DNA of 22,025 nt from a virus. This document shows, one piece after another, positions 2,933 to 19,495 of this stretch; within the stretch, counting starts at the first letter, position 1; every line of letters starts with the position of its first letter. The notes under the pieces are model-generated. The model was not told where the DNA came from. It made no database searches and worked only from the letters and a program-made list of their open reading frames with translations. The translations under genes were made by a program, and so were the position numbers. The stretch spans positions 1 to 22,025 of the IMG/VR virus record IMGVR_UViG_3300029908_000164. The stretch is one strand, 5' to 3'.

Positions 2933-5296
2933 TTAATCCTCTACTATTACCGATGGATGATTATTGCGGAAATCATGTAGACCTTGAAGATGGGTTTTAT
3001 GGATTTCAGCAGTTTTACCATGTGCATCTAGTATAGATTTATGCATATTTCCAGCAAGTTTCATTCCCTCGACTTCAATATTAGCATCACTATGATATCG
3101 TTCAGCGTCAGTAGTTGCCTTTATTTCTTGCAGAGATAAATCGGCCTTTTCTCTTTCTACATTGTTCTTATCGGCTGCAATAACATTTTTCTCATGTTCA
3201 TTTTTAGCTAATATTTTCTTTAATTCAATCTCTTGTTGCTGTAATTGAAGCTCAATTTTCTTCAAGTCTTGATCTCCGGCCTTTAATTGCAGCTCTCCTT
3301 GTTTCAACTGTAGGTCACCTTGTTTAAGTTGCATTTCTATCTGCATCATCTGATCTTCAGGATTAGGTTTTTTAGGTTCTTCCGGCATATCCATCTCTTC
3401 ACGCAGAATATCAGCAGGATTTTTACCAAGAATAACTTGTCGTATACGATCTACAATTTGAGTCGTATTTTCAAGATCAGTATTAGCAGCATAAAGATCA
3501 GCCAGTGCGCCAACAAGCATAGGATTACTTGGAGCAAGAGTGGCCATAAGGTCTTTAAGAGAGTCCATATTTTCTTGCTTCTGAATTTCATAGTTGCTGC
3601 CAACAGTAACTTCAATTCCATAATTACCTTTTGTTAGATCATTTTCGTAGTCATCACCTTTGGGCTTGTTGATATTGACGATGCTTTGATCACCAGATGC
3701 CTTTCTAACTGTTATATTACGTGTACTATCATAAAGAGACGGAATTAATGACATTACACACTTTGCGGTCTGCTCAATAGCTCTGCCCCAGTTATCAAAG
3801 TACACAAAACTAGCCATTGATCCTTGTTTAGCTCGGTTATTGATAGCAACACCTGACTTTTCATTACCTTGTTCGCCAGTATTTGCCTCAAAATAACCTA
3901 ATGTGTTTTTAATATCTTGCGTGGATTGCTGAAACAATTGCATAAAGTTAGGTGATATTTGAGGGGGTGCCACCTGCTCCGGCATGATTCCTTGATCTCT
4001 ATTGGCTACGAGAGCGCCTTTAGCTAATGAAGGATTTCTCCACATTGCTTCGTAACCCTTGAAGTTTTCAGGTGTTCCGATCCACTGTTCTTTATGAGAA
4101 TTCATCAAGTTCTCAATAGCTTCGGACGCCGTGTAATTAACTATTTTCTGCGCATCTTTAGCTGTTCGGTGATAAGACTTGGTGAATTGCTTGCCTTCAA
4201 TAAATTGACTATGGCCATCTACAAAGATAATTGGCATTATTTTACTAGGCCATACAGCCTCTTCTAAGATCTCATCCTCAGACATGATGTAATTCATTAT
4301 CTTGTAGTCGATGGTATCTCTAGTATCGACAATTTCTAGTGCTTCATGAGTATCTAAAAAAGAATTATCATTAATTCCGAAGCCTAAAGAGGTCATTGTC
4401 TTCTTTAACTTCTTCTCTTTGCTCTTAACGCGAGAGATCATTTCTTGATGCAGCTTAACCTCTTCTCTAGCCTCAGATATTTCTAGTGATCTGCCATCGC
4501 TTAAAAGGGCAATCTGCATAGGGTAAGCTTCTTTCACATACATGTTTGCTACTCTAACCCATTCTTCAGAGCGCCAAAAGCTATCAGATTCTCTATTTAG
4601 CTGAGTCGAAGGGAATGAAGAGGGCATTTCGTCTGCAAAATCTTTCTTTCTATCTGGAAATTTATCGTTAAACTCCTGGATTGTGTAAGTAATCATCTCA
4701 CCGCAAAACTTACTATCTGATTTAGTTGCTTCTTTAGCTGTGGAATCCCAAAAACATGTTAAAGGATCATCAATTGCCCTAAATTTTGGCACTTGATTAA
4801 AGGACATGTCCGATTCATACTCAACATGAACAGCAATGGCGCCAAATCCACGTAATAACGCGCTTTCACCGGCTTGTTGAAATACAATTTCTGACTTATT
4901 GTCAAAAAATATTTGTCTCATTAGTCCATCGTATAGATCAATCTGTGGCTGGCTTACTTCAGCATTTGGGTTGCTTTCATCGGTCGTCGTGTATACCTTA
5001 AATTCTGGGGTTTGCTTACGATATTGGCCGACTAAGCTGGCAATAAGGGCATAGATATAATTAATTTGCAGGCAAGCTTTGCCTTCTTGAACTCGCTCTT
5101 GATATAAATTTTGATCCCACTGATTAATGACGGCAAAGTAAATATCCTCTTTAGCGTTTTCAATATTCATGTTGAAGTACGCGAACCATTCGTTAACGCG
5201 CTCAATGGACCTAGAAATAAATTGATCGTCATCTAAATCACGATCTGGCTTTTCATCTGATACAGCTTGGCCAAGTAAATAACTTGTTTTTGGCAT
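2933..5296 (-). CDS. Portal protein, P22-like, with long C-terminal coiled coil
   Basis: The product has 787 residues, longer than the roughly 725 of P22 gp1. It forms the dodecameric ring at the capsid vertex through which DNA enters and leaves. Recognisable parts are an N-terminal region with RVNEWFAYFNMNIENAKED and QLNINYIY-like helices (LQINYIYALIASLVGQYRKQTPEF), a central body, and NTGEQGNEKSGVAINNRAKQ, typical of this portal group. Residues from about 640 to 735 are charged heptad-like repeats (QLKQGDLQLKQGELQLK), the kind of helix that builds the barrel inside P22-like heads. The start at 5296 has a GGAG site. The stop of the large terminase is two bases upstream, so translation is probably coupled. 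It is the last intact gene of the packaging operon. Confidence 0.9.
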   Translation of the reverse strand: MPKTSYLLGQAVSDEKPDRDLDDDQFISRSIERVNEWFAYFNMNIENAKEDIYFAVINQWDQNLYQERVQEGKACLQINYIYALIASLVGQYRKQTPEFKVYTTTDESNPNAEVSQPQIDLYDGLMRQIFFDNKSEIVFQQAGESALLRGFGAIAVHVEYESDMSFNQVPKFRAIDDPLTCFWDSTAKEATKSDSKFCGEMITYTIQEFNDKFPDRKKDFADEMPSSFPSTQLNRESDSFWRSEEWVRVANMYVKEAYPMQIALLSDGRSLEISEAREEVKLHQEMISRVKSKEKKLKKTMTSLGFGINDNSFLDTHEALEIVDTRDTIDYKIMNYIMSEDEILEEAVWPSKIMPIIFVDGHSQFIEGKQFTKSYHRTAKDAQKIVNYTASEAIENLMNSHKEQWIGTPENFKGYEAMWRNPSLAKGALVANRDQGIMPEQVAPPQISPNFMQLFQQSTQDIKNTLGYFEANTGEQGNEKSGVAINNRAKQGSMASFVYFDNWGRAIEQTAKCVMSLIPSLYDSTRNITVRKASGDQSIVNINKPKGDDYENDLTKGNYGIEVTVGSNYEIQKQENMDSLKDLMATLAPSNPMLVGALADLYAANTDLENTTQIVDRIRQVILGKNPADILREEMDMPEEPKKPNPEDQMMQIEMQLKQGDLQLKQGELQLKAGDQDLKKIELQLQQQEIELKKILAKNEHEKNVIAADKNNVEREKADLSLQEIKATTDAERYHSDANIEVEGMKLAGNMHKSILDAHGKTAEIHKTHLQGLHDFRNNHPSVIVED

Positions 5297-9110: not shown

Positions 9111-9428
9111 TTATTTCCCTGTTATAGATTTATTTGGAATCCTATAGCTCTTTTTGAGATTATCAAGCCTATTATCATTTCTTAAGGAGTTCTCATGGTC
9201 AATTCTATGTTGAGGCCATCTACCATTCATGTACAAAAAAACAAGTCTGTGTGCATAGTGAGACATTCCACCTAATCCTATTACCACATAGCCATTCTTA
9301 GTTATGGACCCTGCAATTTTCCCGAATTTTACTTTCTGACGTGAAGTTATCCAGGTAAATAACCCTGATTCAGGGCAATAGTTCAGGTTTTCCTTAAGCA
9401 GTTTCTGAGTTACTTTTTTATGCTTCAT
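9111..9428 (-). CDS. HNH endonuclease, short form
   Basis: The 105-aa product has the phage HNH layout: an N-terminal ENLNYCPESGLFTW motif, the YAHRLVFLYMNGRWP helix and the core RIDHENSLRNDNRLDNLK. The DH pair and the Asn residues are kept, so it could be active. It stops soon after the core and lacks the AP2-like DNA-binding domain that usually follows. It lies between the MazG-like gene, whose stop it overlaps by four bases, and thyX, one base away. It is probably a selfish homing-type element settled in the operon without breaking it. Confidence 0.8.
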   Translation of the reverse strand: MKHKKVTQKLLKENLNYCPESGLFTWITSRQKVKFGKIAGSITKNGYVVIGLGGMSHYAHRLVFLYMNGRWPQHRIDHENSLRNDNRLDNLKKSYRIPNKSITGK

Positions 9429-9898
9429 TTTCTATACCTGTCATCAAGTTCTGGGTGATCTTCTATTGCCTGCAGGCATGCAAGAGCGTTCCAAGCTATG
9501 CTAGCAAGGTGCGAGTTGCCATCAATAGCATCATGGTCTTTGCCGTCCATAAATTCGATAGAGTGCCTGAAAATGGCATCTATGAACCGACTAGACGTTA
9601 ATCCATTGCGATAATTATTTGGGCCGTACTTTTTCTTGCCAAGAGCTTCTATCTTTCCAAGTTCATTCAATCCAGCAGGCGGCAAACAAGCAAAAGATGG
9701 CTTATTATCATCAAATTTAACGCCTTTTTGATCTCTATCTGCAAATTTATTGATAAAGTCTTCTCTTAGGAAAATATCGCACGTATAACATCCGCCTGTT
9801 ACTGATAATACAGATTTGGGGTTTTCTTCTCTTTTTACGCACTCACTGCAGTTTCCTTTACGCTTTACATCAAACATTTGCTCTTCCCAGTCATTCAT
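9425..9898 (-). CDS. dATP/dGTP pyrophosphohydrolase-like protein (MazG-like all-alpha) with N-terminal Cys motifs
   Basis: Residues about 55-150 resemble the phage dATP/dGTP diphosphohydrolase family (formerly DUF5664): GVKFDDNKPSFACLPPAGL, LGKKKYGPNNYRNG, RFIDAIFRHSIEFMDGKDHD and a final SHLASIAWNALACLQ. The acidic and His residues are those expected to hold metal and nucleotide. The first 40 residues add two CxxC pairs (Cys17/20 and Cys37/40), probably binding zinc. Likely role: adjusting the dNTP pool, together with ThyX two genes on. The exact substrate cannot be told from sequence. An in-frame Met8 has an alternative GGAAG site. Met1 has AGGA. Confidence 0.7.
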   Translation of the reverse strand: MNDWEEQMFDVKRKGNCSECVKREENPKSVLSVTGGCYTCDIFLREDFINKFADRDQKGVKFDDNKPSFACLPPAGLNELGKIEALGKKKYGPNNYRNGLTSSRFIDAIFRHSIEFMDGKDHDAIDGNSHLASIAWNALACLQAIEDHPELDDRYRK

Positions 9899-9901
9899 TA
9901 A

Positions 9902-11212: not shown

Positions 11213-11515
11213 TTAATATTTAATTCTTGCGTTTATTTTCTTGTCCGTTTCTTTTAAATTTACAAGTCTATTGTCATGTCTATCTAAATTAATATGTAAC
11301 ATTGTGTTAGGCCAATACCCATGCACATATAGCCATGCCAGTCTGTGAGCTAGGTATGGTCTTCTATTAATGCCAATCCTAATTTCACCGTTATACTTAG
11401 TGCCGGCAATCTTACCCTTTACTGCACCACCACCAATCTTTGTTTTTAACCAGATAAACTTACCAGTCTCTGGGTTATATTTAAGATTATCTTTCAGCTC
11501 ATCTTGTGTAATCAT
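11213..11515 (-). CDS. HNH endonuclease-like protein, probably catalytically impaired
   Basis: The 100-aa product begins MITQDELKDNLKYNPETGKF, nearly the same as the HNH pseudogene at 2246-2742, and has YLAHRLAWLYVHGYWP and HINLDRHDNRLVNLKE. The usual IDH at the core is MLH here, so the Asp that normally holds the metal is Leu, while the catalytic His remains. It also ends right after the core with no AP2-like domain. The ATG overlaps the rusA stop by one base. It may be a decaying homing gene or a repurposed DNA-binding protein. Confidence 0.75.
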   Translation of the reverse strand: MITQDELKDNLKYNPETGKFIWLKTKIGGGAVKGKIAGTKYNGEIRIGINRRPYLAHRLAWLYVHGYWPNTMLHINLDRHDNRLVNLKETDKKINARIKY

Positions 11516-12427: not shown

Positions 12428-13528
12428 ATGGCAAGTAAAATTAACATTTGGATACCTCTTGATATTGGCGCTTACTTAAGTGGAACTACTAGATTAGTTT
12501 GGCAAGAGCATGCGGCTTACCTTCTTTTGATATTTGATTATTGGACAAATGGACCTCTACCTGACGATGACAAAATCTTATCTAGGATCATTGGGCAAAA
12601 TATTGAAGAGTGGAATGATATGAAAGTCATGATCAGATCATTTTTCATAGCTAAAGATGGCAAGCTTTACCATAAAAGGATTGAGCGAGACCTAGCAAGA
12701 GCCAAGGAATCATGCGCTAAAAACGTAGAACGAGGAAAGAAAGGGGCTAGAGCAAGATGGAGTGCTGAAGATGATAGTCAGAGTAATGCTCAAGCAATGC
12801 TTAATGAATGCTCAGACTATAGTACAAGCATAGTCGAAGCATGCTTAGAGAATAGTCCAAGCATAGTCGAAGCATACTCCAAGCATTGCTTAAGCAATGC
12901 TCAAGCAATGCTTAGCGATGGCTATATAGATAAAGATATAGATATAGATAAAGATATAGATAAATACCAACACTTAAAACAAGATAAACAATCAGATTCA
13001 AAAGAAGAAAAAGAAAAATCTACATCAAAATCTAAGTCAACAACATTGTCGAGCAAAAAAACTAAGGCTCTATTAGAAAATGACAATTACCCTTGGGATG
13101 ACAATGAAGATCATCTGTCAAAACCTGTTTGTCGAGCTAAAGACTCGACCGCTGTGATGGCGCCATCGAAAGTTTCATTTGCCCAAATAATCTTTAAGCA
13201 TTGGCAAGATGTAATGGTTAGCCCTAGGTCAATCATGGATGCTAAGAGGAGATTGGCAATTGAGGCTAGGCTGAAAGATGGTTACATGGTTGATCAGCTT
13301 AAAATGGCGATTGATGGATGCAAGTTGTCAGATCACCACATGGGCATCAATGACAGAAACACGCGATATAACGATATTGAGCTTATTTGCCGAAATGCGG
13401 TTAATGTTGACAAGTTCATCGCATTAATTAACCAGCCCAAGAGTAGCTTGACGGCAAAAGGGCAATCAAACGCTAACATGATCCTTGAGTGGATGCAGGA
13501 AAAGAGCGCGGAGTTAAGCTCAATGTAA
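12428..13528 (+). CDS. DUF1376 (YdaU-like) replication-initiator-type protein
   Basis: Residues about 5-95 match the DUF1376 pattern: WIPLDIGAYLSGTTRLVWQEHAAYLLLIFDYW, LPDDDKILSRIIG, and a basic helix RIERDLARAKESCAKNVERGKKGARARW. The middle (about 118-180) is encoded by an 11-bp DNA repeat array and then by hexamer repeats giving IDKDIDIDKDID, so its amino acids seem driven by DNA function. A Lys/Ser-rich linker follows. The C-terminal domain (about 250-366, FAQIIFKHWQDVMVSPRSIMDAKRRLAIEARL) resembles the C-terminal part of phage replication proteins. Likely role: binding the origin that lies in its own gene, as lambda O does. It is followed 35 bases later by the loader-like gene. The sequence NYPWDDN near residue 220 recurs in the gene at 14048. 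Confidence 0.75.
   Translation: MASKINIWIPLDIGAYLSGTTRLVWQEHAAYLLLIFDYWTNGPLPDDDKILSRIIGQNIEEWNDMKVMIRSFFIAKDGKLYHKRIERDLARAKESCAKNVERGKKGARARWSAEDDSQSNAQAMLNECSDYSTSIVEACLENSPSIVEAYSKHCLSNAQAMLSDGYIDKDIDIDKDIDKYQHLKQDKQSDSKEEKEKSTSKSKSTTLSSKKTKALLENDNYPWDDNEDHLSKPVCRAKDSTAVMAPSKVSFAQIIFKHWQDVMVSPRSIMDAKRRLAIEARLKDGYMVDQLKMAIDGCKLSDHHMGINDRNTRYNDIELICRNAVNVDKFIALINQPKSSLTAKGQSNANMILEWMQEKSAELSSM
12781..12924 (+). repeat. Array of about twelve 11-bp repeats (candidate iterons) inside the DUF1376 gene
   Basis: Units start at 12781, 12792, 12803, 12814 (12 bp), 12826, 12837, 12848, 12859, 12870, 12881, 12892 and 12903, with a degenerate one at 12914. The commonest forms are AAGCAATGCTC/T and AAGCATAGTCG. 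Eight begin with AAGCA. A 19-bp stretch, AATGCTCAAGCAATGCTTA, occurs at both 12785 and 12896, and an 18-bp stretch, CAAGCATAGTCGAAGCAT, at 12825 and 12858. Eleven bases is about one helical turn, so every unit faces the same side of the DNA. Confidence 0.85.
12926..12967 (+). repeat. A/T-rich hexamer repeats, candidate DNA-unwinding element
   Basis: Six hexamers in a row (ATAGAT, AAAGAT, ATAGAT, ATAGAT, AAAGAT, ATAGAT) and a divergent seventh directly follow the 11-bp array. They encode alternating Ile/Lys-Asp. Together with the A-rich stretch to about 13040 they form the easily melted segment expected next to origin iterons. Confidence 0.6.
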
Positions 13529-13563: not shown

Positions 13564-14076
13564 ATGAGAAATGTGGATTTAGAGCGATTTGGGATCATAT
13601 TGACGATGGTTCATGAATATTACGACAAGACAATATCGAAGGGGGTGGCTGCAATGTGGTGGGAGGGCTTGGAGTGTGAATCAATAGACGACATCGAAAT
13701 ATCGTTTAAGCATCACATGAGGAACAATGGGACATTTTGTCCAAAAATTAGTGATATTATCAAAATAATCAATGGCGACCCCAGAGATAACGCGGTCATT
13801 CAGTGGGGCCATGTGATGGCGCAATCTAAACACGCTAGCAATGGCATGTCATTCAGAGATCCTATCACTGCAAGGGTTGTTAAGGCCATGGGCGGTAAAG
13901 AATTGGGCATGTATGGAGCCTCAGACTGGGCCCACAGCAGAAATTATTTCATTGACAGCTATATTGCCTATCAGAATCAAATGGAAGTAGACAAGGCCGT
14001 TGAAAGGCAGAAGTTAATTAATCAAACGCAAAGAAAAGGAATTTCTAATGAAAGATCAGCAAGACAATCAAGTTAA
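13564..14076 (+). CDS. Helicase-loader-like phage replication protein (DUF6475-like)
   Basis: The 170-aa product has the pattern LERFGIILTMVHEYYDKTISKGVAAMWWEGLE, IEISFKHHMRNNGTFCPKISDIIKIINGDP, then AVIQWGHVMAQ and TARVVKAMGGKELGMYG. I recognise this arrangement from phage replication proteins downstream of an initiator, comparable to P-type loaders, and probably the DUF6475 family. It is helical with no ATP-binding motif. It follows the DUF1376 gene, has an AAGGAT site, and its 3' end overlaps the next gene by 29 bases. Role as helicase loader is inferred from context. Confidence 0.65.
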   Translation: MRNVDLERFGIILTMVHEYYDKTISKGVAAMWWEGLECESIDDIEISFKHHMRNNGTFCPKISDIIKIINGDPRDNAVIQWGHVMAQSKHASNGMSFRDPITARVVKAMGGKELGMYGASDWAHSRNYFIDSYIAYQNQMEVDKAVERQKLINQTQRKGISNERSARQSS

Positions 14077-18040: not shown

Positions 18041-18069
18041 ATTATAGGTAAGTTGTTTAAAGATGTCAA
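18041..18069 (-). promoter_or_regulatory. Perfect-consensus sigma70 promoter of the leftward SSB operon
   Basis: On the minus strand TTGACA (18064-18069) is followed by exactly 17 bases and TATAAT (18041-18046). Expected start of transcription is about 18034, leading to the gene at 17986. Directly upstream, AGTTGTTA (18071), AGTGTTAAT (18082) and AGTTGTTAAT (18091) recur at about 10-base steps and may be regulator sites. Confidence 0.8.
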
Positions 18070-18128
18070 GAGTTGTTACAAAGTGTTAATAGTTGTTAAT
18101 AATGATGAGAAATAACAAGTAATTGTAA

Positions 18129-18481: not shown

Positions 18482-19495
18482 ATGGCAGATTTATCAAAGA
18501 AATTGGCATCAATTACGGTTGGCAATACAGACACCAGTGATGCGGCTTTTCAAGCACTCAAAGCTGAGATCCAAAAACCTACTATTAATAGTGTCGAACC
18601 TGACGATGTAGATGATCAAGAAGCCCTTGCCGATGAAGTCGAAGCTATTGAAGAGATAGAGGAAGCTTTAGAGGATGACTTAATTGAAGAATCAGAAGTT
18701 GTCGAAGAAGAGCCAATTTTAGAAGTCGTTAAGAAAGTCGATAAGAAGCTAGATCCTGAGCAACAAGATGCAGTGCAAAAGCGTATTAATAAGTTAGTCG
18801 CTCAGCGCAAGTCAGTTGATGAGGAGAATCGGGTACTCAAGGCGAAGTTAGAAAGTTATCAGGCACCAGTGCCAGCTAATATCCCAGAGATAGTTGGTGA
18901 TACCTGGCTAATAAGACCTGATACTAAGCAACGCGTTGAGATGCCCAGAGCTGCTGATTATGAGGGTAATACTCCTTTATATATGGAGGATATGTATAAG
19001 TTTAATAACCTTAAGAATCAGGTCATTAACGCGGTTACATCTCACCATAGACAAGAGTCGAGTAAGACTGCTTACGTTAATCAGATTAAAGATGATTACT
19101 TAACGACTAAGTTGCCGGCTGCACGTGCTAAGTATAAAGACTTTGAGGCAGTCGTCATCAGTCCAGAGCAAGAGTCGTTAGAAAAGGCTCATCCTTGGAT
19201 TGTCGAGGCTTTAATGGAGTCTGAGTATGGCACTGACATTGTATATAAGTTAGGCAAGCATCCCGAGTACTTGCGTGAGCTTACATCGATGAAACCAGCA
19301 AATGTGATGAAAGAAATTGGCAAATTGGAGGCTATGGAAGAGATGACAGTTAAGCCACGTACAGTTAGCGCAGCACCTAAACCTATTAGTTCCGCAGGGA
19401 AATTAGCAGGTACAGGGGCGGCTAGCGTTAAGACGAAGAGCTTTGAAGAGATGTCTATAAGTCAGTTAAAAGAACGCTTAAAAACGCGCCGCTGA
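18482..19495 (+). CDS. Capsid scaffolding protein
   Basis: The 337-aa protein lies directly before the coat gene, as phage scaffolds do. Residues about 38-85 are strongly acidic (EALADEVEAIEEIEEALEDD and onward). Residues about 85-130 form a charged coiled coil (DPEQQDAVQKRINKLVAQRKSVDEENRVLKAKLESY). The C-terminus is basic (SISQLKERLKTRR), as in P22-type scaffolds whose basic C-terminal helix binds the coat protein. It guides procapsid assembly and then leaves the head. Start has a GGGATAG site. Assignment relies on position and layout. Confidence 0.85.
   Translation: MADLSKKLASITVGNTDTSDAAFQALKAEIQKPTINSVEPDDVDDQEALADEVEAIEEIEEALEDDLIEESEVVEEEPILEVVKKVDKKLDPEQQDAVQKRINKLVAQRKSVDEENRVLKAKLESYQAPVPANIPEIVGDTWLIRPDTKQRVEMPRAADYEGNTPLYMEDMYKFNNLKNQVINAVTSHHRQESSKTAYVNQIKDDYLTTKLPAARAKYKDFEAVVISPEQESLEKAHPWIVEALMESEYGTDIVYKLGKHPEYLRELTSMKPANVMKEIGKLEAMEEMTVKPRTVSAAPKPISSAGKLAGTGAASVKTKSFEEMSISQLKERLKTRR

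Follow-up and report, generated by a model that had tools for sequence, protein, structure and literature searches.

Organization of the initiator locus

The window (the whole stretch of DNA analysed here, a 22,025-nucleotide IMG/VR fragment) contains a replication initiator gene with a tandem repeat array placed centrally in it, between the DUF1376 domain and the O-like region (Table 1). The protein matches PF07120 with an E-value of 1.9e-18 (67.1 bits versus a gathering cut-off of 30.1), and its PHROG matches are annotated as 'primosomal protein', 'replication initiation protein' and 'replication initiation O-like'. Its C-terminal O-like region probably contacts the helicase loader, a function for which the downstream gene is the probable candidate, its match to the 'helicase loader' group phrog_2289 being weak. 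Elsewhere, the fragment encodes a P22-like portal, a terminase, RusA and RecT. Direct homologues of the initiator in IMG/VR are limited to two near-identical contigs, which are uninformative because the DNA of the gene is unchanged in them and no variation is added. The cumulative GC skew of the fragment, which covers 22 kb only, is uninformative as to the origin: its two near-equal minima, near 12.0 and 17.5 kb, track the orientation of the genes.

Table 1. Features of the initiator locus (positions in the window)
Feature	Position	Strand	Basis or remark
Replication initiator gene, 366 aa: DUF1376 domain, linker with array, C-terminal O-like domain	12428..13528	+	PF07120; PHROGs
DUF1376 domain, residues 8-89, predicted winged helix	12449..12694	+	Pfam; AlphaFold2 pLDDT 88
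Long C-terminal helix of N-terminal domain, residues 83-116	12674..12775	+	AlphaFold2 secondary structure
Proposed DNA-reading motif RGKKGARARW, xARW class	12731..12760	+	motif class predicts iteron word
Iteron array, 12 units (11 bp, one 12 bp)	12781..12913	+	consensus AAGCAnTGCTn
Iteron 1	start 12781	+	GAGTAATGCTC
Iteron 2	start 12792	+	AAGCAATGCTT
Iteron 3	start 12803	+	AATGAATGCTC
Iteron 4	start 12814	+	AGACTATAGTAC, the sole 12-bp unit
Iteron 5	start 12826	+	AAGCATAGTCG
Iteron 6	start 12837	+	AAGCATGCTTA
Iteron 7	start 12848	+	GAGAATAGTCC
Iteron 8	start 12859	+	AAGCATAGTCG
Iteron 9	start 12870	+	AAGCATACTCC
Iteron 10	start 12881	+	AAGCATTGCTT
Iteron 11	start 12892	+	AAGCAATGCTC
Iteron 12	12903-12913	+	AAGCAATGCTT
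Candidate unwinding element, GATAAA/GATATA hexamers	12920..12967	+	80% A+T
C-terminal O-like region, residues 254-339	13187..13444	+	phrog_18020 E 2.4e-11; phrog_16167 E 2.3e-24
Probable helicase-loader gene, P-like position	13564..14076	+	phrog_2289 E 8.6e-5; DUF6475 E 3.7e-6

Two further observations concern the rest of the window. Five 10-bp AAGTTGTTAA-like repeats lie at 18050-18099, where an intergenic region separates leftward genes from an ORF at 18482, and are possibly regulatory or a second repeat site. Three similar small genes on the minus strand (2292-2742, 9111-9428 and 11213-11515) resemble HNH homing endonucleases (NPETGxFxW ... AHRLAWLY), the first of them seemingly split into two frames.

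The repeat pattern is held at the DNA level

An earlier note on this DNA had described head-to-tail 11-bp units, each read in a different frame, with A/T-rich hexamers directly behind them, and this description holds. Eight of the twelve units start with AAGCA, the codon phase runs 2, 1, 0 from unit to unit so that all three frames are used across the array, and the hexamers adjoin the iterons. The claim that the protein repeats every 11 residues stands only in part: such a repeat is present but weak, with 26% identity at lag 11. Tandem Repeats Finder reports an 11/22/33-bp array together with 6/18-bp repeats at 12924-12962, and the array is the top lag-11 stretch of the window (peak identity 0.65; next best elsewhere 0.40). 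AAGCA/TGCTT words number 12 per 135 bp in the array versus at most 3 elsewhere in the window, and the form AAGCAnTGCTT is also a near-palindrome.

The DNA pattern itself had been proposed to be under selection. Synonymous recoding supports this proposal, as the protein cannot account for the 11-bp period. Among 20,000 recodings drawn from the phage's own codon usage, none was as high as the observed lag-11 identity of 0.64 (0.37 +/- 0.04 expected from the protein alone), none matched the lag-22 identity, and AAGCA/TGCTT words averaged 2.5 with a maximum of 9, versus 12 observed. In the hexamer part, lag-6 identity is 0.77 versus 0.58 under recoding (P 5e-5). Thus, both array and hexamers are more regular than the amino acids require, indicating that the pattern is maintained as DNA.

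The same words recur in initiator genes of other phages

Searching IMG/VR by word, we found AAGCAATGCTNAAGCAATGCT in 36 stretches and pairs of AAGCAATGCT at any spacing from 0 to 12 in 99 stretches, versus 5 for a reversed control pattern; an exact triple repeat was too strict as a query. Exact AAGCAATGCT pairs lie within initiator-type genes (Pfam hits plus genes clustering with them by BLAST) in 51 of 73 stretches at spacing 11 or 12, versus 2 of 26 at other spacings. The host genes of these matches belong to several families, including those with DUF1376, Lin1244_N, DnaT and DnaB_2 domains, and in 11-bp arrays one and the same word reads as SNA, QAML or KQC depending on frame.

A protein-first set was gathered by the DUF1376 domain with no selection on the word, and the window and a small number of annotated phages were added to it. 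In nearly all of the 110 non-redundant DUF1376 phage genes of this largely protein-based sample, words phased at 11 or 12 bp occur in the linker directly behind the domain. The earlier note had regarded an in-gene phased array as unusual for a DUF1376 protein; it is instead common in DUF1376 phages, with a spacing of 11 or 12 bp. A second short-period repeat then follows in these linkers, such as TTCACC (read as PSPSPS), ACCAATA, GATACA in Rac or GATAAA/GATATA in the window. The word excess over synonymous expectation is about fivefold in each of three large classes: 162 AAGCA/TGCTT words versus 32 (maximum 42) in 51 xARW genes, 92 AACCCA words versus 17, and 43 GTTCAA words versus 8. Spacings cluster at 11 (25, 37 and 13 pairs, respectively), at 12 in the AAGCA class only (31 pairs), or at roughly double these values. 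Serine codons also differ between the elements: AGC accounts for 105 of 180 in the iteron part but for 0 of 119 in the PSPSPS part beside it, 114 of those 119 being TCA. The check that the earlier note had suggested, whether the DNA repeat persists while the protein varies, therefore came out in its favor, in that AAGCAnTGCT words recur in the linker in differing frames and with non-random synonymous codons.

These data bear on whether the array might be a low-complexity protein spacer that grew by slippage, with the DNA repeat as its by-product. The linkers are indeed of low complexity, and all arrays made up only of 12-bp units stay in one frame (SNAPSNAP). However, 11-bp arrays cycle through the frames, and a slip of one unit would therefore put the gene out of frame; moreover, the pattern is destroyed by synonymous recoding, serine codons divide by element, and other phages have the very same words in non-coding DNA. 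We consider this explanation very unlikely.

Outside this set, the window array has no match in E. coli genomes, and the array of another sequence (L263) gave one match there, by chance, in a transporter gene. The tandem peptide QAMLKQCSSNA gave chance matches in phages, and a free-spacing word search of bacterial genomes returned, among the matches listed, mainly unrelated repeats, for example at spacing 15 in pentapeptide-repeat genes. In Prevotella-type genomes (L040-L119), AAGCAATGCT recurs with a spacing of 22 bp; these repeats frequently lie outside long genes and are unrelated to initiator genes. In Vibrio phage 1.183.O (L312), in-gene repeats of a DUF1376 gene at 1423-1452 are publicly annotated as a CRISPR spacer, which is probably a mis-annotation of iterons. 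Both cases could be taken to suggest a mobile or recombination-promoting repeat of the REP or CRISPR kind that hitchhikes in initiator genes. Yet the position is fixed behind the N-terminal domain, the spacing is fixed at 11/12 bp and the word is specific to the adjoining motif, which makes such an origin of the repeats extremely improbable.

A short motif and the iteron word change together

The N-terminal domain of DUF1376 initiators closes with a short motif, and judging from sequence comparison the iteron word tracks this motif rather than the ancestry of the domain. Among 112 non-redundant genes, 110 with a classified motif, xARW goes with AAGCA/TGCTT in 46 of 53 genes, NGxKGGR with AACCCA in 27 of 28, AGKAS with GTTCAA in 18 of 23, GAxKRW with GGCAAA/AGCAAA in 3 of 3 and ANQIRW with ATCAGA-type words in 2 of 2, with almost no cross-occurrence. 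The classes and words had been proposed before the A5 and A6 scans, on the basis of 80 genes of the A4 scan and a handful of annotated phages, and their definition thus draws on a portion of the data. The A5 scan contributed the majority of KGGR and AGKAS genes; the AGKAS scan yielded mostly near-identical E. coli prophages. On a domain tree built without the motif, the motif classes switch 13 times and the word switches along. Within the xARW clade, two NGxKGGR members (L280, L287) carry AACCCA, and Rac (L401) and L313 carry GTTCAA, while L347, inside the other clade, carries AAGCA. A class-free partial Mantel test gave r 0.46 (0 of 2000 permutations as high), and domains that are close but differ in motif have hardly any linker words in common. 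An independent-pairs sign test, which is underpowered, gave about three concordant pairs and no discordant one; the covariation is thus strong but not decisive, as formal independent contrasts are few. In a small set of genes from bacterial genomes the KGGR rule fits the single case, whereas two xARW-type genes (L494, L495) have other phased words, indicating that the xARW expression is too broad and lumps subclasses. In addition, part of the covariation could reflect exchange of one small DNA module, given that motif and iterons adjoin in the gene.

The AAGCAnTGCTT word is shared by phages of proteobacteria, cyanobacteria and actinobacteria. Such a distribution might be expected if a host protein read the iterons and the initiator were not the binder. 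But a single conserved host factor would then have to exist across this broad range of hosts, and within the DUF1376 family the word changes with a motif of the phage protein; a host reader is therefore highly improbable.

A second initiator family with non-coding arrays

The same word accompanies a second initiator family, represented by gp74 of Tweety, gp81 of Avani, gp88 of Piper2020 and gp79 of Rita (mycobacteriophages), gp89 of Gordonia phage Holliday and gp49 of Arthrobacter phage Sonali. These proteins have no Pfam match above the cut-off and no detectable sequence relation to the DUF1376 initiators, and they end in a KAAAARW-type motif. Here the AAGCATTGCTT array and its variants lie downstream of the gene as non-coding DNA (in Rita, at a distance of one more gene), and the iterons cannot include the codons of the motif. 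Where the motif deviates (Dori, Liefie, REQ2), the words are different as well; in REQ2, the motif AGRKGAQATW pairs with ATGGCAAA, which is also the word beside GAxKRW in DUF1376 genes.

Both arrangements occur on one contig: L010 combines an AAGCA array inside a gene with a non-coding intergenic array that has GATAAG repeats (3371-3403 and 9843-9900). Three related contigs (L006, L028, L029) carry the non-coding array, which in L006 and L028 sits behind a gene that reads as a DNA methyltransferase.

Predicted structure and comparison with known origins

AlphaFold2 models the N-terminal domain of the window protein as a winged helix with a single long helix behind it, in which the motif lies (pLDDT 88), and a low-confidence model of the actinophage family (pLDDT 68) has the same order of elements. 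The N-terminal domain of pSK41 Rep is among the best PDB matches for both families (Z 6.8 for the window protein and 7.5 for the second, both below 8 and short of a secure fold match); the structures 4pql, 5kbj and 4pt7 match the window model at Z 6.7-6.8 with an rmsd of 2.7-2.8 over 73-74 residues. Such matches may simply reflect a generic winged helix. Foldseek alone gave no match with E <0.001, and a Pfam scan of the window protein found DUF1376 only, with no RepA_N domain. That two long helices might grip the near-palindrome in a bZIP-like manner is speculative.

In lambda and Stx phages, iterons and an A/T-rich element lie in the middle of initiator gene O, with the loader gene next to it (PMC5043065, PMC7466680). 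The window likewise has tandem in-gene iterons, an adjoining A/T element, a loader-like gene downstream (weak match) and a C-terminus matching an 'O-like' PHROG. However, lambda has four iterons of 18-19 bp with an internal dyad, in contrast to twelve units of 11 bp here, and the N-terminal domain of the window protein is DUF1376. The array is thus lambda-like in logic but, given its unit length, not a member of that group. In pSK41, a winged-helix N-terminal domain of RepA_N type binds Rep boxes central in its own gene, and in RepA_N plasmids (pSK41, pPR9) the linker encoded by the origin is dispensable, and domain and origin swap as a module (PMC5703833). The origin candidate in the window is likewise central, in a linker between two domains, and the predicted N-terminal fold may be similar, at a Z-score below 8 and with no RepA_N match by sequence. 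The RepA_N domain of PLE RepA covaries with its origin (PMC8263062); PLE iterons are about 30 bp, compared with 11 bp in the window, and covariation in DUF1376 genes instead resolves to a motif of about 10 residues in a near-unchanged domain. SPP1 has direct repeats and an unwinding element, with oriL inside gene 38 and oriR intergenic (PMC6316719), a layout resembling that of L010, with one in-gene and one intergenic array. For Brutus and Scipio, two Obolenskvirus phages, direct repeats midway along the gene of the replication protein were noted and suggested by the authors to be an origin (PMC10888812); that account is not known to describe a shared word, phasing or motif correspondence. A further Obolenskvirus, QH4 (L311), encodes an initiator of DUF1376 type that falls into the KGGR class.

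Discussion

Our computational analysis establishes a phased array in the window, a constraint on it at the DNA level, a conserved architecture and covariation of motif and word. The array is very probably the replication origin of this phage, with iterons and an unwinding element in the linker of a DUF1376 initiator and a probable helicase-loader gene downstream. The earlier note had likened the arrangement to the logic of lambda O, which is the best-supported reading, the words recurring both in DUF1376 linkers and as non-coding DNA. From these patterns we infer protein binding, melting, helicase loading and origin activity. The origin would be built into a dispensable linker of the phage's own initiator gene; because such a linker tolerates almost any sequence, constraint on the DNA can override codon choice there. 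The winged-helix domain, whose long helix bears the basic RGKKGARARW at its end, would bind the AAGCA(n)TGCTT iterons, and protomers would stack on one face of the DNA, given that the iterons are one helical turn apart. The resulting nucleoprotein array would melt the A/T hexamers beside it. The replicative helicase would be recruited by the O-like domain at the C-terminus, together with the loader encoded just downstream.

Repeated binding sites also play operator and partition roles in plasmids and phages, and the array could in principle serve autoregulation of the initiator or act as a centromere-like site rather than as an origin. However, it lies within the gene and not at a promoter, repeats of the melting type directly adjoin it, the association is with replication initiator genes, and fold and architecture fit known in-gene origins (fold matches below Z 8). 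We therefore regard an operator or partition site as unlikely.

In-gene origins, covariation of initiator and origin, swapping of domain and origin, and repeats in Obolenskvirus replication genes are already known. What appears new in the literature searched is the widespread 11/12-bp word, its constraint at the DNA level and the correspondence between a short motif and the word across two families; among the matches listed in that search, we found no description of AAGCAATGCT as a phage element. The evidence is evenly poised on a further proposal, that the motif of about 10 residues at the close of the winged-helix domain is a modular DNA-reading code common to two or more initiator families that show no detectable relation in sequence, and that a change of motif (xARW, NGxKGGR, AGKAS, GAxKRW, ANQIRW) alters the cognate 11-bp word.

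With this reading, DUF1376, an anonymous domain, becomes a predicted origin-binding domain, and a rule is at hand for locating replication origins in many phages and prophages, including E. coli Rac (ydaU) and mycobacteriophage Tweety. Natural motif swaps between close relatives make the specificity of initiator for origin testable. If the motif does set the word, the origins of very many uncultured phages would be readable from sequence.
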